NCBI RefSeq assembly: GCF_024347435.1
Contig: NZ_AP025480.1
Span: forward strand, 1,612,001-1,676,000
From: Vibrio cyclitrophicus
Lineage (GTDB): Bacteria; Pseudomonadota; Gammaproteobacteria; Enterobacterales; Vibrionaceae
Direction: 5' to 3'
Length of the DNA: 64,000 bases
Each line of letters begins with the position of its first letter. Position 1 is the stretch's first letter. Both the position numbers and the translations under genes were made by a program. Of this stretch, positions 5,434 through 62,363 are shown one piece after another. Under the pieces are notes generated by a model. It was not told where the DNA came from. It was given only the letters and a program-made list of their open reading frames with translations, and ran no database searches.

Positions 5434-5694
5434 GTGCTGACTCTCTACAGTACAGAAGGGTGCCATCTATGTGAGATGGCATTCAAACTCACGGAACAGT
5501 TAAACATTAGCCATCACGTCAACGTTGTCGACATTGCATTTGATGATGAGCTCTTTTCCCGTTACGGGGTCACTATTCCGGTGCTCAAATTTGAAAGCTC
5601 TGACTTTTCTCAAAGCTCAGAGCTTAACTGGCCATTTGGCTTGTTAGAACTTAATGATTGGTTAAAAAAGAATGGCATTACTTACAATTCATAA
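5434..5694 (+). CDS. Glutaredoxin family (DUF836-type) protein
   Basis: An 86-residue thioredoxin-fold protein. The CHLC motif near residue 10 (EGCHLCEMA) is the redox-active pair, and VTIPVLKF near residue 50 holds the cis-proline seen in glutaredoxins. The start is GTG, with an AAGGA ribosome site about seven bases upstream. The 3' end overlaps the start of uup by 23 bases, implying coupled translation. Members of this family commonly sit between rlmL and uup in gammaproteobacteria; the reduced substrate is not known from sequence. Cytoplasmic, with no signal peptide. Confidence 0.85.
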   Translation: MLTLYSTEGCHLCEMAFKLTEQLNISHHVNVVDIAFDDELFSRYGVTIPVLKFESSDFSQSSELNWPFGLLELNDWLKKNGITYNS

Positions 5695-7588
5695 CGGGCA
5701 ATTAGCGTTTGGCGATCACCCGTTATTAGATCGTGCGGACTTTGCACTGCAAGAAAATGAACGTGTGTGTTTAGTAGGGCGCAATGGCGCGGGTAAGTCT
5801 ACGTTGATGAAGATCCTGTCAGGGAATATCATCATGGACGACGGTAAGATGCAAATCACACAAGATGTAGTTGTATCTCGCTTAGAGCAAGATCCCCCGC
5901 GTAATGAGCAAGGTACCGTCTATGACTACGTTGCTGGTGGCTTAGCTGAAATTGGCGAGCAACTGAAGATCTATCATGATCTTTTGGATCTCATTGGTAC
6001 TGACCCAAGTGAAAAGAACCTAAACCGTCTTACTCGTGTTCAAGAGCAGTTAGATCACGCAAACGCATGGCGTTTCGAAGATCGTGTAAGTAACGTAATG
6101 GCGGCGCTTAAGCTGACTGCTGAAACCAAACTGACCGATTTGTCTGGTGGTTGGCAACGCAAAGCTGCGCTTGCGCGTGCATTAGTGTGTGATCCAGACG
6201 TTCTACTTCTAGACGAACCGACTAACCACTTGGATGTTGCAACTATTGAATGGTTAGAAGGCTTCCTGAAAGACTTCCGTGGTTCAATCATCTTTATCTC
6301 GCATGACCGTGCGTTCATTAAATCGATGGCAACACGTATCGTTGATCTTGATCGCGGCAAACTGAGCTCTTTCCCGGGGGATTACGAAAACTACCTATTA
6401 GAGAAAGAAGAAGCGTTGCGTGTTGAGGAAATGCAGAACGCTGAATTTGATAAAAAGCTTGCTCAAGAAGAAGTTTGGATTCGTCAGGGGATCAAAGCTC
6501 GTCGAACTCGTAACGAAGGCCGTGTGCGTGCTCTCAAGAAGCTGCGTGAAGAACGTATCAATCGTCGTGAAGTGCAGGGTAAAGCGGTTATCCAGATTGA
6601 TGATGGTCAACGCTCAGGCAAGATTGTATTCGAAGCAGAAAATCTTAACTTTGGTTTTGAAGGCAAAGAGATTGTTAAAGACTTTAGCTTCAACATCATG
6701 CGTGGTGATCGTATTGCTCTGATCGGTCCTAATGGCTGTGGTAAGAGTACGGTGCTTAAACTACTTCTTGATCAACTTAAGCCAGATTCAGGTCGCCTGC
6801 ATTGTGGTACTAAGCTGGAAGTGGCTTACTTCGACCAATATCGTGAAATCCTAGACCCTGAGAAGTCTGTAATTGATAATCTAGCGGATGGTAAGCAAGA
6901 AGTGACAGTAGGCGGCCGTGAGCGCCATGCACTGAGTTACCTGCAAGATTTCTTATTCTCTCCTAAACGTGCTCGTACTCCTGTAAAGGCACTATCTGGT
7001 GGTGAGAAAAACCGTCTGTTATTAGCTCGTATCTTCCTTAAGTCGAACAACTTATTGATTCTCGATGAGCCGACCAACGATCTAGATATAGAAACTTTGG
7101 AACTTTTAGAAGATTTGCTTGCCAACTATCAGGGTACACTTCTTTTAGTGAGCCACGATCGTCAGTTTGTTGATAATACGGTGATGACAAGTTGGATCTT
7201 TGAAGGTAATGGCGTTATTGAAGAATTTGTTGGTGGTTACCATGATGCCCAGCAGCAAAGAAAGCAGGCATTAGAGTACCGACAGGTTGAAAAGCCATCA
7301 AAGCCCGAGAAAGTAGTTGAGGAAACTCCCAAAACTGCGTCAGTTAAGGCTAAACCTAAGAAGTTATCGTATAAGCTACAACGAGAACTAGAAGCGCTAC
7401 CAATGCGTTTAGAAGAATTGGAAACTCAAATTGAAACTCTTCAGGAAGAAGTCAACGATCCCAGCTTCTTTTCAAAATCTGTAGAGCAGACACAACCAGT
7501 TTTAGATAAGCTATCTGCAGCAGAGCAGGAGCTTGAAGTTGCTTTTGAGCGCTGGGAAGAGCTCGAGGCACTACAACAGGAAAGTTAA
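5672..7588 (+). CDS. uup: ABC-F family ATPase Uup
   Basis: Soluble ABC-F protein with two ATPase domains and no membrane part; Uup acts at the ribosome and affects transposon precise excision. 638 residues is the usual size. First domain: Walker A GRNGAGKST near residue 37, signature LSGGW, Walker B LLLDEPTNHLD. A charged linker of about 80 residues follows. Second domain: GPNGCGKST near 352, LSGGEKNRL, LILDEPTNDLD. The C-terminal coiled coil (about 565-638), rich in E, L and Q, is the DNA-binding tail characteristic of Uup. It overlaps the glutaredoxin-like gene upstream and is nine bases from the DUF3466 gene downstream. Confidence 0.95.
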   Translation: MALLTIHNGQLAFGDHPLLDRADFALQENERVCLVGRNGAGKSTLMKILSGNIIMDDGKMQITQDVVVSRLEQDPPRNEQGTVYDYVAGGLAEIGEQLKIYHDLLDLIGTDPSEKNLNRLTRVQEQLDHANAWRFEDRVSNVMAALKLTAETKLTDLSGGWQRKAALARALVCDPDVLLLDEPTNHLDVATIEWLEGFLKDFRGSIIFISHDRAFIKSMATRIVDLDRGKLSSFPGDYENYLLEKEEALRVEEMQNAEFDKKLAQEEVWIRQGIKARRTRNEGRVRALKKLREERINRREVQGKAVIQIDDGQRSGKIVFEAENLNFGFEGKEIVKDFSFNIMRGDRIALIGPNGCGKSTVLKLLLDQLKPDSGRLHCGTKLEVAYFDQYREILDPEKSVIDNLADGKQEVTVGGRERHALSYLQDFLFSPKRARTPVKALSGGEKNRLLLARIFLKSNNLLILDEPTNDLDIETLELLEDLLANYQGTLLLVSHDRQFVDNTVMTSWIFEGNGVIEEFVGGYHDAQQQRKQALEYRQVEKPSKPEKVVEETPKTASVKAKPKKLSYKLQRELEALPMRLEELETQIETLQEEVNDPSFFSKSVEQTQPVLDKLSAAEQELEVAFERWEELEALQQES

Positions 7589-54578: not shown

Positions 54579-55039
54579 TGCCGTTACCTTTTTAATGTGA
54601 AAAACGCCGCAACGTTACTTGTTCAGGGCTTTAACTGCAAGTATTGATTGCAATTACTGACCATTAAGTGAGTGATAACCTTGCCAAATCATAGTTTGAG
54701 CTGACTCACACTTTTGATTTTCTATTTTGCAGAGAAAAAACGTCTTTCTTCAAGAGAAACAAAGTAGCGAACACCAGTCGTTATTGGGTTTTATATTACG
54801 ACTGATGTAATGCTGATAATTGAATATATCGCATGGCGCATTGTTACAGTTGAACCTGCTTTCAGACTAGCAACCAGCGACATAGCTAACTGCTCAAATA
54901 CTAGCCCAACCCCTGACAATTTCATGACAATGATGAAAGAAACAGGAATAAAGTACTCTCCCCCGAAAAGTGGTTAGATTTCACAAAGCAAGATTAACTA
55001 ACTATAGTAATCCTAACCTCATAATTCTAAGAGATTTTT
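54579..55039. other. Divergent gap between ybiT and the P-loop membrane gene
   Basis: No ORF of note. CAGTCGT and ACGACTG near 54776-54803 form an imperfect inverted repeat. Promoters for both flanking genes are presumed here; none is clear. Confidence 0.4.
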
Positions 55040-57385
55040 ATGCGTTCACTATCGCGCTTCTTATTGCTTTTATTAGCCATGCTCTCTTGGCCCAGTCATG
55101 CCAACTTGGAATATGACTTACAATCACAACCTCAGGTATCGAACGCAGTCAAAGCTCTGGACAACCGTATCAATGCCCTACCCGATCCTTTGTTTATGGA
55201 TGAATTGGATAAACGCAAAGTCAACACTCTATTGGCTGAAGTGCTTCGAGTTCAAAATCAGCAAATCACGACATTTGACCAGCAGTTGTTAGCCTACAAA
55301 GAAAACAACAATGTCGATTTGTGGTTTGCGGTTGAGTCAAGCTACGTGACATTGAATAGTTTGAACGTCAGTAAGCAGCACCTGCTTGAACAGACGACCA
55401 CTGCAAACAAAGAACGCCTGACAGGTTTTGGCCCTTATGGGGTAACTCAGTTTAAACAAGAGTGGGATCTGACTAAGCTCAACGTTGAATATCTGGTCTA
55501 TTTTCAGATCCGTAGCTTCAAGGCGTTAGTTAACGATATCTTTATTTCGCCCGTACCTGTGATTGGCGCGTCGTTAAAAGTGTTGTTCATCTACTTCGGT
55601 TTAGTGTGGTGGCTTGCCAACAGCACTCGCTTGATTGAGTTGTTTCGAATTAACTTTCTTGAAGCGAAAACGAACCCTCCTTTCCTAGTTCGCGTGATTT
55701 GGTATATCAGCCGCGCTGATCGAGCGATTGCTTGGCTAATTGCCATTACACTTTCATTGAGAGTACTTTCTAGCATCTCTAGCCTGCAACACCTGATTTT
55801 CCTTGAGATCTTCACATGGTGGATTCTTGGTGGCTCGATTGCGATTAGCTTTATCCTCGAATTTGCTTACCGTTTAGGCCGCACATCTAATCAAGAAGTG
55901 ATTGCTCTGCGTCTATCAACAATTCGCCGTTATGTGTGGAGCTTCATTATTGCGGGTGTGATTCTGCAAATATCGAGCATAACCCTGGGCAAAGGCACGA
56001 TCTACAGTTGGATATACAGCGTTCTGTTTTTCTGGTTTGTGTTGGTTACTATCTCAGTTCTTCGATTATGGCGAGCAAAAGTATTCGATACATTACAACA
56101 CATCTCCGATCGACCAGTATGGGTCAATTGGGCGGTAAACCGTAAGGACACTTTTCTCCTTAATATTGTTGCAACAGCGCTGGGGATCGCTTGGTTGAGT
56201 GTTTATAACTTTCAGCATCGAATCATGGCTCTACTTTCTAACTACACTCTGTTTAGTCAAGCCTTAGCTTATTTGTTTCGAATTGAAGTGGCGAAACAGT
56301 CTGACCTTGATAAGAACCAACAGAATTTAGTGAGGATAAAAGGCGACCAAACCTTTGAATACATTTTACCGGGTTCAATAGACAGCACGCTTATTGATTA
56401 TGCCGGCGACGAGGTGAAACAGCTTTCTCGCTACCTCATGTCAGATAGCCCTGCAATTTGTATCGTGTCTGGCGAGCGTGGTGTTGGCTCAACGACTCTG
56501 CTTTATACCCTGCTGCACAAGGTGTCAAATGCCGAGCCAGTCTACGTAAGCTGCCCATATGCGGGGTACCAAGAGTTCCTAGCCCATCTAGCAGTGAGTA
56601 TTGGTTTGGATGAGGAAGCCACCGAGATTCAGATTTTGGCGCATCTACGTAAAAGCGAAACCACTTATCTTATTGCGATTGATAATGCACAGCGCTTAGT
56701 CAAGCCTATGGTGGGCGGATTATCTGATCTTATCCGCCTAACAAACTTGCTTCGTCGTTCTAAAAAAAATCACCGTGTAGTCATGTCGATTGCCAAATCA
56801 AGCTGGCGCTTTGTTGATCGAGCTCGTGGTGAGCGCTTGTTGTTTGACCTGGTTTGCTTCCTTCCTCGTTGGACAGAAAAACAAGTGAGTGAGCTTTTAA
56901 CGAGTCGCATCAACAACGAGTTAGAAAAGCCGTTGTCATTTGATGGCTTGGTGGTTCCTAAGCAGTGGGATCAAGATGACATGACAGAAGAGGAACGCGC
57001 TCGTAAAGGGTTTTATCGAATTCTATGGCATTACTCCGATGGTAACCCTACCGTTGCCCTGCGCTTCTTCCGTTTATCTCTGAATCGAAATAAAGAGACA
57101 GATCAAGCCGTGGTACGCTTGTTCCACGTACCAGAAGCTCAAGAGCTAGAAAACATGCCTAAACCTATGCTGGCTGTGCTTCGTTCTATCGTGCAGTTGG
57201 AAATCGCGTCGCCAGAAGTGCTGTCTGAATGTACTCAGTTGAGTATTGCTGAGATTACCGGGATTCTGCGTTATTTCGAAAGTCGCGGTTACATTGGTTG
57301 GAATGAAGACAAGGCTAAGATATCGGATCACTGGTTCCGTCACATTACTAACGTTCTCGACCGTCAACATTTATTGGTGAAGTGA
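55040..57385 (+). CDS. Membrane-anchored protein with degenerate P-loop domain, paired with MscS
   Basis: 781 residues. A signal peptide (1-22) precedes a helical exported region (about 25-165), then at least six hydrophobic helices (about 170-415) and a cytoplasmic C-terminal half. This half has the shape of an AAA/STAND-type NTPase, but the P-loop reads GERGVGSTT (478-486) with Ser in place of the essential Lys, and Walker B reads LIAIDNAQRL with Asn after Asp548. A winged-helix-like segment (about 715-775, SPEVLSECTQLSIAEITGILRYFESRGYIGW) ends it. One base separates its stop from the mscS start. I do not recognise a named family; it may gate or assemble the channel. Confidence 0.65.
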   Translation: MRSLSRFLLLLLAMLSWPSHANLEYDLQSQPQVSNAVKALDNRINALPDPLFMDELDKRKVNTLLAEVLRVQNQQITTFDQQLLAYKENNNVDLWFAVESSYVTLNSLNVSKQHLLEQTTTANKERLTGFGPYGVTQFKQEWDLTKLNVEYLVYFQIRSFKALVNDIFISPVPVIGASLKVLFIYFGLVWWLANSTRLIELFRINFLEAKTNPPFLVRVIWYISRADRAIAWLIAITLSLRVLSSISSLQHLIFLEIFTWWILGGSIAISFILEFAYRLGRTSNQEVIALRLSTIRRYVWSFIIAGVILQISSITLGKGTIYSWIYSVLFFWFVLVTISVLRLWRAKVFDTLQHISDRPVWVNWAVNRKDTFLLNIVATALGIAWLSVYNFQHRIMALLSNYTLFSQALAYLFRIEVAKQSDLDKNQQNLVRIKGDQTFEYILPGSIDSTLIDYAGDEVKQLSRYLMSDSPAICIVSGERGVGSTTLLYTLLHKVSNAEPVYVSCPYAGYQEFLAHLAVSIGLDEEATEIQILAHLRKSETTYLIAIDNAQRLVKPMVGGLSDLIRLTNLLRRSKKNHRVVMSIAKSSWRFVDRARGERLLFDLVCFLPRWTEKQVSELLTSRINNELEKPLSFDGLVVPKQWDQDDMTEEERARKGFYRILWHYSDGNPTVALRFFRLSLNRNKETDQAVVRLFHVPEAQELENMPKPMLAVLRSIVQLEIASPEVLSECTQLSIAEITGILRYFESRGYIGWNEDKAKISDHWFRHITNVLDRQHLLVK

Positions 57386-57386
57386 A

Positions 57387-58274
57387 ATGAAGAAGTTATT
57401 TGTCCTATTACTTGTTGGCTTAGCGACTACCGTGAGTTTTCCGACCTATGCAACGGAAGAGTTAGCCAACGTAGAGAACATCTCTAAGATTGCAAGCTTG
57501 GTACGATGGAGCGGTGTGTTCTTCTCCATGATCGTTATTGCAGCAATGTGGCTGTTGCTTAAGTTCATCAATTCGTTGGTGACCAGCTTTGGTAGCCAGT
57601 TTGTGCAATATAGAATGTTGCTACAAAAACTGCAGTCGTTTACTCAGTTCTTTATCTACGTAAGCACGGGTCTTATCGTGTTCATGATGAGTTTTAGAAT
57701 TAACGACCAAATACTGGCTTTGATTGGGGGTACTCTTGCTGTTTCAGTAGGCTTTGCGCTTAAAGACTTGGCAGCATCATTTATCGCGGGTATCACGGTG
57801 ATGATCGATAGACCCTTTCAAGTTGGTGATCGCGTCACGTTTGAAGGTAATTACGGCGACATAATTACGATTGGTTTGCGTTCTGTGCGCATGAGAACTT
57901 TGAATGATGACATCATCACAATTCCAAACAACAAGTTCTTAAATGAAGTCACTACCAGTGGTAACTATGGTGCGTTGGATATGCAGGTGGTGATTCCGTT
58001 TTACGTCGGAATGAATGAAGACATCACTCTAGCCCGTGACTTAATCCAAGAAGCGGCTTCTTCAAGTCGCTATATTCATTTACCTAAGCCGGTCACGGTT
58101 TTAGTAAAACAGACGATTACGGATAACTACTTAGCGATACAACTAACTTGTAAAGCTTACGTAGTGGACACCGCATATGAGAAGTTGTTTGAAACCGACA
58201 TTACTTTGCGTGTAATGAAGGAGTTCAGAAAGCACAATATCAACCCTCCGAAAATTTCAGTGGCTGCGCATTAA
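57387..58274 (+). CDS. MscS-family mechanosensitive channel
   Basis: 295 residues. N-terminal signal-like sequence (1-22), two membrane helices (about 38-60 and 85-108), and the pore-lining TM3 (about 112-138, GGTLAVSVGFALKDLAASFIAGI). The beta domain has DRPFQVGDRVTFEGNYGDI and ITIPNNKFL, the MscS hallmark motifs, and an alpha/beta C-terminal domain follows. The size is near E. coli MscS (286). The start lies one base beyond the stop of the preceding gene, so channel and partner are made together. Confidence 0.9.
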   Translation: MKKLFVLLLVGLATTVSFPTYATEELANVENISKIASLVRWSGVFFSMIVIAAMWLLLKFINSLVTSFGSQFVQYRMLLQKLQSFTQFFIYVSTGLIVFMMSFRINDQILALIGGTLAVSVGFALKDLAASFIAGITVMIDRPFQVGDRVTFEGNYGDIITIGLRSVRMRTLNDDIITIPNNKFLNEVTTSGNYGALDMQVVIPFYVGMNEDITLARDLIQEAASSSRYIHLPKPVTVLVKQTITDNYLAIQLTCKAYVVDTAYEKLFETDITLRVMKEFRKHNINPPKISVAAH

Positions 58275-58329: not shown

Positions 58330-58370
58330 AAAACACCTCCTAACTTATCTCAAGTGCGGAGGTGTTTTTT
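58330..58370. terminator. Terminator between mscS and the chemoreceptor
   Basis: AAAACACCTCC (58330-58340) pairs with GGAGGTGTTTT (58358-58368), then T's, between convergent genes. Confidence 0.85.
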
Positions 58371-58417
58371 TATGAGGTTTCTATGTGCGGAAAGACTAAG
58401 AGTAAGAGTTGTTGGGT

Positions 58418-60335: not shown

Positions 60336-62363
60336 TTAGAGGTTGGACACCAGCAATTGCGGTTTTGCTTTTTGTTGAAGGTAGATACTAAAGCAACTTC
60401 CCTTGCCTACCTCAGATTCAACTCGGATTTCACCACCAGTCTGACTCAAGATACTTTGAGAGACTGATAAGCCTAAGCCTGTACCGTCGCGTTTGGTGGT
60501 ATAAAAAGGCGAGAAAATACGTTTTAGTTGTTCTTCTTTAATACCACAGCCTTCATCTTTAACATGAACGATAGCGCCATGAGACACACCATTTTCAACC
60601 CAATCTTCACTTGAAATCGTCAATGTACCTTGCCCATCCATGGCATGAATCGCGTTCATTTGTAAGTTCACGAGGATCTGTAGCAGTTGATTTCGATTAA
60701 CTTCAACAGATGTTTTTGCACTAAGGTTAGAGACATAAACAATACCTTTCTTCTTAGCGCCCGTTTTCACTAATGTGATGCTCTCATCTACTATCGGGTT
60801 GATATGTTGCCATGTGACTTCGTCTTGAACACCGCCATGTCGGCTGTATTGAAGCAGGCTTCGTGTGATGTTTCGAATTCGATCGATTTGTTCCATGATA
60901 GCTTGGACTTCTTCGTTGACTCGACCAATGTCATCTCCTAGTTCAAACTTCATCAACTCTACGTTGCCTAAAATCACGGCTGTTGGGTTATTAATCTCGT
61001 GCGCAATTCCTGCGGTTAACTCGCCTAGTGCTGCCAACTTTTCATTGACCACCAGCTTATCTCTCGCTTGGTTGAGTAGTTGAATGTGAAGCTCAAGCTC
61101 TTCAGTTTTCTCTTTCAAACTCGCGGTACGAGAATGAACTTTGCATTCCAATTCTGACGCCGCTTGTTGAATCTCTTGATTACGCTCGTGTAGAAGATCC
61201 AACATCTTGTCAAACTGTTTAGCGAGCAGTGTCAGTTCGTGTTGATCATCCAATCCTAGCGTACCAATTCGCTTGTCTTGCCCCATTTGGACAAGCTTGA
61301 CGACTTTATGAATGCGTTCAATTGGGTTGAAAAGATCACGCGCGCCACGATGGACGATCAAACCCGAAGCTAGCAATAGCAATACAATGGTAATGCTTAT
61401 TTCACCAAGATTAGTTAAATAAGTTTGTATGAGAGGCCAAATTAGATAACCGGTGTAAAGCATGCCAATGACGTTGTCGAATTGGTCATGGATCGGCTGG
61501 TAAGCGGTGATGTACCACGCATCGTAAACATATGCACGGTCAAGCCACTCTTTGCCTTCATTGAGCACTTTTGTGTGAACTTCGTTGGAGACGCGAGTAC
61601 CAATAGCGCGTCCTGCACTGTCCTCGCTACTTAGCGGAACGTTCGTGCTAACGCGAAGATCATCTAGAAATACAGTAACGGTACCAATACGTCGATTAAA
61701 ACCATCGCGTTGTGGGTATATCAGATTGCTGATCTGATCAACTAATTGGGTACTATTATTGAGTAAAATACCGCCATCAAGAAAACCAATTACATGGTCA
61801 TGTTTGTCTCTAATTGACACAACAGTGCGACTGACCAAACCTCGAGTTTCGACATCGTGCCCGTTGAGCATTGGTACTTCGGCTTGTTTCGCTAGATTGC
61901 GATCGAGTTCATTCAGTTCATCTTGAGTAAGCACATTAAAAAAGGACTCTTTGTGCGTAAGATCAAGGTATTCAAGCTTTTTGTCCATTTGCTCAACACT
62001 GCGCCAGCGTAGAAAATCGAGCTTATAGCGTTTCTTGTTCTCTGACACCCAGCGAGTGAAGTCTTCTTTCGAACCATTACTGGTGAGCTTTACTCGGAAA
62101 TTGTAAGATTCAGCAAACGCTTGAACATTATAAGCTTGTTGGCTTTGAATCAAATGAATACTGTTGTCTGCGACATCCAAACGCTCATCGACATCAATTA
62201 ACGCGCCCTGCCACGTATAATGAACCGACCAATACAAGGTAATGGCAACCAATGCGCAGAGCGTTAAGATAATCGGAGCGGATGTCAGGAACAATAAGCG
62301 ATAACGTACCATTGTTTTGAAACGGAACGTCCACTTAGACCACCAAAGACGTCTAATCGGCAT
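60336..62363 (-). CDS. Sensor histidine kinase of a sigma-54 two-component pair
   Basis: 675 residues. Membrane helix (about 27-48), large periplasmic Cache-like sensor (about 50-320, SFFNVLTQDELNELDRN and RDKHDHVIGFLDGGILL), second helix (about 322-342), HAMP, coiled coil (about 400-445), HisKA with His in GELTAGIAHEINNPTAVI (about 460), then HATPase with NLQMNAIHAM, DEGCGI, FSPFYTTK and GTGLGLSVSQSI. The sequence type is that of NtrB/DctB kinases. It overlaps the regulator gene by 11 bases. The signal is unknown. Confidence 0.9.
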   Translation of the reverse strand: MPIRRLWWSKWTFRFKTMVRYRLLFLTSAPIILTLCALVAITLYWSVHYTWQGALIDVDERLDVADNSIHLIQSQQAYNVQAFAESYNFRVKLTSNGSKEDFTRWVSENKKRYKLDFLRWRSVEQMDKKLEYLDLTHKESFFNVLTQDELNELDRNLAKQAEVPMLNGHDVETRGLVSRTVVSIRDKHDHVIGFLDGGILLNNSTQLVDQISNLIYPQRDGFNRRIGTVTVFLDDLRVSTNVPLSSEDSAGRAIGTRVSNEVHTKVLNEGKEWLDRAYVYDAWYITAYQPIHDQFDNVIGMLYTGYLIWPLIQTYLTNLGEISITIVLLLLASGLIVHRGARDLFNPIERIHKVVKLVQMGQDKRIGTLGLDDQHELTLLAKQFDKMLDLLHERNQEIQQAASELECKVHSRTASLKEKTEELELHIQLLNQARDKLVVNEKLAALGELTAGIAHEINNPTAVILGNVELMKFELGDDIGRVNEEVQAIMEQIDRIRNITRSLLQYSRHGGVQDEVTWQHINPIVDESITLVKTGAKKKGIVYVSNLSAKTSVEVNRNQLLQILVNLQMNAIHAMDGQGTLTISSEDWVENGVSHGAIVHVKDEGCGIKEEQLKRIFSPFYTTKRDGTGLGLSVSQSILSQTGGEIRVESEVGKGSCFSIYLQQKAKPQLLVSNL

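Follow-up and report, generated by a model that had tools for sequence, protein, structure and literature searches.

An MscS-family channel gene and its closely spaced partner encoding a membrane protein with a degenerate AAA/STAND-like domain

Channels of the MscS family are textbook tension valves that open by themselves; why, then, should one of them be encoded directly behind a large membrane protein that carries an ATPase-like fold? We met this arrangement in a 64,000-nucleotide stretch of Vibrio cyclitrophicus DNA (the window; assembly GCF_024347435.1, NZ_AP025480.1, positions 1612001–1676000), which belongs to contig 1 of a three-contig genome of 5.28 Mb. Gene A (55040..57385; open reading frame, Pfam match and predicted fold) encodes a 781-residue membrane protein with a AAA_22/ORC-STAND-like domain, a putative channel partner, and gene B (57387..58274; open reading frame, Pfam, profile and hydropathy) encodes a 295-residue MscS-family channel with a predicted signal peptide followed by MscS-type membrane, beta and C-terminal parts. 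Both genes, like the features of this unit given below by window coordinates, lie on the forward (+) strand, and the TGA stop codon of A is followed by one base and then the ATG of B, confirming the spacing described in the initial annotation of this DNA. We lean, by a modest degree, towards A being a dedicated regulatory subunit of channel B, which would hold and release the gate by means of a STAND/ORC-like AAA+ domain, one that has probably ceased to hydrolyse ATP. While the folds of the parts are known, the A–B module appears to be undescribed: the initial annotation knew of no system of this form, and our search of open-licence literature likewise found no description of an MscS channel with a AAA/STAND partner.

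By its sequence, gene B is an MscS-family channel. It matches the Pfam domains MS_channel_2nd (PF00924; E 7.5e-17, 61.6 bits, cut-off 20.2) and MS_channel_3rd (PF21082; E 4.3e-7, 30.7 bits, cut-off 21), and a profile of the B family finds 46 distinct sequences of solved MscS heptamer chains in the PDB at E ≤0.001 (best 1.6e-27, 3udc), aligning with MscS chains across most of its length at E of about 1e-25 to 1e-27. Both lines of evidence make E. coli MscS a close likeness of B, and we know of no dedicated AAA/STAND partner gene for the E. coli channel. B proteins form a sharp clade, scoring 294–375 bits against at most 133 for other MscS proteins in our phylum survey. Extra MscS-type genes, belonging to other MscS clades as judged by score, adjoin some A–B cassettes (L274 5966–7021, on a Caulobacter plasmid; L229 5680–7700, in G840; L226 6617–8481, in G823).

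How faithfully does A accompany this channel? A survey of the order with A gave matches in 39 of 394 genomes, with full-length copies in 35 (36 loci), and B was adjacent at 36 of 36 of these loci. The other four matching genomes hold only the tail of A (G307), relics of both genes (G167), a shorter A-type gene with B (G005) or a match at the level of the AAA domain without B (G366); this last was the only case without B in our check for homologues lacking an MscS neighbour, which found no full-length A on its own. The 32 Vibrio genomes comprise 24 with the intact pair, 1 with relics of both genes, 1 with B and a remnant of A and 6 with neither, the best MscS match in these six reaching at most 58.6 bits against at least 289 for B beside a full-length A. 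Counted in this way, the pair was lost together in 7 of the 8 Vibrio genomes without an intact A. All of the 80 named-genome loci that we retained out of 127 relatives (in Vibrio, Aliivibrio, Photobacterium, Shewanella and Psychromonas) contain the pair, the exceptions to completeness being a broken A frame in L108 and best A segments covering residues 316–781 in L109 and 240–781 in L125. The two genes are separated by exactly 1 base in 60 of the 80 and by −1 to 19 bases in 78. Among the matches listed, the closest homologues of the window's A come from Vibrio, including V. splendidus. Several Aliivibrio genomes carry two A–B cassettes (L099 and L113, L105 and L116, L115 and L128, L101 and L114), with L099 and L113 lying on one contig about 76 kb apart.

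In the window, the two genes flanking the pair lie on the opposite strand; from sequence reading, we name them an ABC-F-like ATPase gene and a chemotaxis-receptor-like gene. Since neither neighbour was seen in the flanks of 44 of 88 loci (an upper bound, as flanks were mostly 4 kb and some reached contig ends), the adjacency of A and B is not caused by flanking genes. Shewanella provides a further view of the cassette: B is present in 29 of 97 genomes, 13 times as a long-type B with an A of the long membrane type found in the window (A3) and 16 times as a short-type B with an A of about 390–470 residues that retains a AAA domain (A5), with no mixed combination. A and B thus appear, from these distributions, to travel as one unit.

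The association extends well beyond the order. A class survey with the B profile returned 17 of 369 genomes at E ≤1e-25, and an A-family partner is present in 16 of these 17, our own genome included; at the 16 other loci, a single A-family frame lies directly upstream in 13, two overlapping frames in 2 (L188, L189) and none in 1 (L190). With a broader B profile, 23 of 398 genomes of the phylum survey scored at least 294 bits, the next match falling to 132.7, and an A-family partner adjoins B in 23 of 23, in two frames in G755. Full-length long A genes also stand beside B on three of three alphaproteobacterial plasmids, two of these pairs being annotated as 'AAA family ATPase' or 'ATP-binding protein' with 'mechanosensitive ion channel'; the genes are 2 bases apart in Novosphingobium pentaromativorans pLA3 and overlap by 4 in Caulobacter sp. 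NIBR2454. Across Gamma- and Alphaproteobacteria, A and B form a tightly spaced cassette that is seldom broken up. Together with the 36 of 36 loci in the order, the joint losses in Vibrio and the unmixed Shewanella cassettes, the adjacency in these surveys strongly supports the dedicated partner gene that the initial annotation had proposed. It is hardly credible that A merely shares an operon with B and is unrelated to channel function, given that adjacency is maintained over many families and in differing neighbourhoods, with cassette types kept unmixed.

Besides A3 and A5, a third partner type (A4) of about 400 residues has no recognisable P-loop, and a AAA Pfam match was absent in the four A4 proteins scanned. 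Profile comparisons link A3 with A5 (probability 99.4, E 1e-21, 322 columns), A4 with A5 (97.9, E 4.7e-13, 352 columns) and A4 with A3 (95.4, E 1.8e-8, 316 columns); this comparison unites all partner types in one family that shares its core and C-terminus. A match of model A3, A4 or A5 to one of its own members follows from how the models were built; the loci outside them are L176, L177, L188, L189, L222–L229 and L273–L275, of which the eight newly fetched phylum-survey loci (L222–L229) lie outside all models. Searching the class with the A profile instead gave matches in 65 of 369 genomes; apart from our own genome and G521, these were short AAA_22-level matches (at most 35.4 bits), which we rejected as members.

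What kind of protein is A? Pfam, hydropathy, an AlphaFold model and sequence reading support the predicted succession of signal peptide, exported helices, membrane helices, NTPase-like domain and winged-helix-like end that had been described for it. A predicted signal peptide (residues 1–22, 55040..55105; from sequence reading, with a break of low predicted local distance difference test (pLDDT) score at 21–27) precedes an exported helical domain (residues 23–170, 55106..55549), predicted to contain helices 35–45, 55–88, 92–118 and 132–169, which is the least conserved part. The membrane module follows (residues 171–430, 55550..56329; separate N-terminal fold and hydropathy), with six hydrophobic segments and a last helix at 403–427, in agreement with a hydropathy profile showing an exported region of about 150 residues and then six hydrophobic segments. 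The AAA+/STAND-like domain (residues 431–700, 56330..57139) contains the AAA_22 match (residues 471–583; E 1e-9, 39.2 bits against a Pfam cut-off of 27), and the winged-helix-like C-terminus (residues 701–781, 57140..57382) is the most conserved part. In the AlphaFold model, helices span 35–169, the helical membrane module about 172–427, the AAA+ fold about 434–700 and the winged-helix-like end 708–775; since its mean pLDDT is 84.8 and its predicted template-modelling score (pTM) only 0.51, the domains are confident and their mutual arrangement is not.

Structure searches with the model (Foldseek, VIA) matched Cdc6/Orc1, TnsC and NLRs, and the hallmarks of STAND proteins are all present: the AAA+ core, a GxP-like motif and the winged helix. 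The motif is GNP (residues 668–670, 57041..57049), which we take to be the STAND GxP motif and whose Gly is present in 25 of 25 lineages compared. A resembles STAND/ORC-Cdc6/TnsC ATPases (AAA_22, AAA_16) in its above-threshold AAA_22 match, its fold including the winged-helix end and its GNP motif, but differs from them in being membrane-bound and channel-paired, and in missing the Walker A Lys and Walker B Glu in the window's clade. The best fold matches, Cdc6/Orc1 and TnsC, many of them solved with DNA, could be taken to mean that A tethers the channel to DNA through its ORC/TnsC-like fold and winged helix, an idea that we regard as extremely unlikely. STAND ATPases also act in defence, and Avs3 (8dgc) is among the fold matches of A, at rank 47; a conflict or defence module of STAND-like sensor and pore-forming effector is nevertheless very unlikely, as PADLOC matches A weakly (E 0.0037 at best) and B not at all, the intact pair is present in 24 of 32 Vibrio genomes, and purifying selection acts on the AAA and winged-helix parts; the exported part, on the other hand, is the least conserved. 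Neither NCBIfam nor PADLOC returned a function for A. GspA/ExeA-type secretion ATPases combine AAA_22 with a periplasmic peptidoglycan-binding domain, and no such domain is found among the Pfam matches of A at E ≤1.

Since searches with the whole of A were saturated with AAA+ folds, we folded its N-terminal half separately. The resulting model (pLDDT 86.2, pTM 0.73) had no significant structural match in Foldseek or VIA, and a profile of this half against PDB sequences gave weak matches only, mostly to coiled coils (best E 0.014). In Foldseek, MscK took the first two ranks without reaching significance (E 0.073 and 0.083); MscK was absent from the best 50 VIA rows, and a comparison with 11 MscK/MscM-like proteins by hhalign lent no support (probability 12.5 over 25 columns).

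The nucleotide site of A is degenerate in both of its catalytic positions. Its P-loop reads GERGVGSTT (residues 478–486, 56471..56497), with S484 at the position of the Lys, and the Walker B remnant D548-N549 (56681..56686) retains the Asp and has Asn in place of the Glu, so both losses noted in the initial annotation are borne out. In the 120 close homologues listed of 236 found, the motif is GERG[VIA]G[TSAV]T[TS] in all 120 and Lys is present in none, which shows that its absence is not a sequencing accident; Lys is likewise found in none of the 27 P-loops read among the 29 Shewanella genomes with B (L244 and L256 were unread by our pattern). In a 54-row alignment of the long clade (alignment A3, with near-duplicates removed by shared 5-mers and with L084, L091, L108, L109, L125 and L021 omitted for want of a usable full frame or start), all 54 rows share G481, G483, T485 and D548, and the Lys column varies (T36 A6 S4 K4 V3 L1). 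Mean identity to the window's A over the 53 other rows is 42% in the exported part, 67% in the AAA part and 77% in the winged-helix part. In the AAA part, four of six comparisons gave ratios of nonsynonymous to synonymous substitution (dN/dS) of 0.014, 0.018, 0.019 and 0.074; these values are rough, since most dS estimates exceed 1, and in the other two comparisons dS could not be computed. Judged by these data, purifying selection acts on both the AAA and the winged-helix part, and the conserved residues together with low dN/dS indicate that selection has retained the nucleotide site without its catalytic Lys. We do not class A as an active STAND/AAA+ NTPase, since S484 and N549 replace Lys and Glu; the invariant Thr and Asp suggest that A may still bind nucleotide in the Vibrio clade.

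Could A then be a true nucleotide sensor, binding ATP or ADP without hydrolysis and coupling the energy state of the cell to channel opening? Such a role would be K-ATP-like; in K-ATP channels (Kir6 with SUR), a channel is run by a separate ATPase-derived subunit, a functional analogy only, as the proteins are unrelated. The invariant residues of the long clade and the existence of Lys-intact relatives beside the same channel speak for this possibility, which we consider doubtful since Lys loss usually weakens nucleotide binding and one large P-loop-less branch retains the partner.

The wider family shows that the broken P-loop is a clade trait and does not define the system, since Walker A is intact in several lineages. 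Lys occurs together with the Walker B letters DE in G521 (GDKGGGKTT) and G923 (GEKGAGKSL), and with other Walker B letters in G709, G494, G823, the same-order f7 family (GERGIGKTT, SERGLGKTT), Novosphingobium (GERGLGKSS) and Caulobacter (GERGAGKTS); the Lys-intact partners of this sister family, other Gammaproteobacteria, Novosphingobium and Caulobacter each stand beside an MscS gene. Arg takes the Lys position in G474 and G598, a P-loop without Lys is found in the Vibrio type, Shewanella, G655 and G525, and no P-loop at all in G753, G520, G431, G663, G670, G641, G1023, G1083, G1051, G958 and G840. Our check for homologues with an intact Walker A thus found them, and found no known function for any. 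In a channel tree of 38 rows (omitting L189, whose partner is in two frames, and including L190 without a partner label), the presence of Lys or Arg requires at least three changes, and the Vibrio-type clade without Lys (support 99/97) is sister to a Lys-bearing clade (100/100) inside a 100/99 group. Three losses are the fewest-changes reading of this tree and not proof, its root being weak (69/77) and its outgroup branches long; since Lys is the usual state of P-loop NTPases, losses remain the natural reading despite the weak root.

The P-loop-less family numbers 180 proteins at E ≤1e-10, none of the 120 listed (P0181–P0300) having a Pfam domain, and most of the named ones among the matches listed are labelled 'hypothetical protein'. 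Named members come from Kushneria, Salinisphaera, Methylobacterium, Roseovarius, Rubripirellula and Roseiconus, the last two being presumably planctomycetes. A reverse search with the P-loop-less profile adds little, as its matches, in 5 of 293 genomes, were all already known beside B and in the model, and a plasmid search with the Roseovarius protein gave no match. For the initial suggestion that A binds nucleotide without hydrolysing it, these data cut both ways: the suggestion fits the long clade, with its invariant residues around a variable Lys column, and is impossible for the P-loop-less branch. The persistence of partners without a P-loop makes it unlikely that the common function requires hydrolysis.

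The same evidence bears on whether A is instead an assembly or insertion factor for B, its AAA+ module serving as a chaperone-like platform during heptamer formation and not as a standing gating subunit. AAA+ folds often remodel complexes, and the gene order of A then B with near-zero spacing would suit such a role, as would the intact B without A in G307. Chaperone-type AAA+ work normally requires ATP hydrolysis, however, and here entire clades have lost Lys and Glu while another has no P-loop; moreover, the long exported and membrane parts of A would be unneeded, and we therefore think an assembly role unlikely.

A dedicated regulatory subunit, the reading we favour, could work as follows. 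A and B would bind each other, perhaps in copy numbers that match at the heptamer; A would sense the state of the envelope or membrane with its exported helices and membrane module, and its AAA–winged-helix module would relay the sensed state to the cytoplasmic cage of the channel. In the Vibrio clade, nucleotide probably remains bound in the pocket of A, as a ligand with a structural or sensory role, and in the P-loop-less branch the subunit would work without nucleotide. An MscS-like channel, CmpX, reportedly shares the Pseudomonas aeruginosa cmaX-cfrX-cmpX operon with another membrane protein, a partner said to be CorA-like and thus unlike the AAA/STAND partner A. MscK (KefA) is an 11-transmembrane, K+-dependent MscS-family channel whose periplasmic ring takes part in gating (PMC9653487). 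Like the A–B pair, it combines an MscS core with an exported helical domain and additional membrane helices. MscK is a single polypeptide (PMC9653487), whereas here the sensor-like part and the channel come from separate genes and A carries a AAA+/winged-helix module at its end. By analogy, MscK is the nearest model for periplasmic helices that join in the gating of an MscS core (PMC9653487).

Several points weigh against a standing regulatory subunit. Help by A in the assembly or insertion of B would give an identical operon pattern; no A–B fusions occur among the homologues listed (120 of 236 for A, 60 of 60, and 120 of 180 for the P-loop-less family); L190 (G631), the weakest B-like match of the class survey, lacks a partner; the dN/dS values for A are rough, as stated above; and in G307 (L037), where B is intact and 96% identical, only the last 58 residues of A are left. 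Perhaps B retains a use on its own in that genome, or else A was lost there recently. At this locus (5550–6680), the upstream ABC-F gene is intact, and G307 is the sole Vibrio of the 32 to retain B without A. The B-like gene of L190 (5156–6025), the only such channel of the class survey without an A-family neighbour, sits on a long tree branch.

The pair is likely closed as a transcription unit by a stem and T run at 58332..58371, which by direct reading form a likely intrinsic terminator, with a perfect 9-bp stem (AACACCTCC/GGAGGTGTT) and a 17-base loop; this element is absent from our automated scan, whose maximum loop was 8 bases. About 30 bases 5′ of gene A, a weak sigma-70-like promoter match (TTCACA-17-TATAGT, 54980..55008, 10 of 12 positions) may be due to chance, and as promoter-like matches in that region are fewer than in its shuffles, this match alone is no evidence. 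A histidine-kinase-like gene lies 3′ of the pair (60336–62363), and such a gene is also found near B in the Vibrio loci L082, L083, L094, L037, L038 and L109.

A broader picture may be sketched tentatively. B would belong to a widespread, unnamed MscS class in Proteobacteria, and perhaps Planctomycetes, that is permanently run by a heptamer-matching, STAND-derived subunit. This subunit would once have been an ATP-driven switch, with Lys and Glu still intact in some lineages, and would have lost catalysis about three times. The Vibrio line would have arrived at a gate that senses the membrane and is clamped by nucleotide, and another line at a purely mechanical one without a P-loop. Bacteria would, in that case, possess a counterpart of K-ATP in which the partnership has outlived the 'ATPase'. 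An MscS clade almost never found without an ATPase-derived partner would mean that many bacteria place such channels under protein control. The natural series of intact ATPase, lost Lys and vanished P-loop beside one channel clade lets the need for nucleotide be tested directly, and since the named relatives of the P-loop-less partners are mostly labelled 'hypothetical protein' and none of those listed has a Pfam domain, the finding would give a dark protein family a role.

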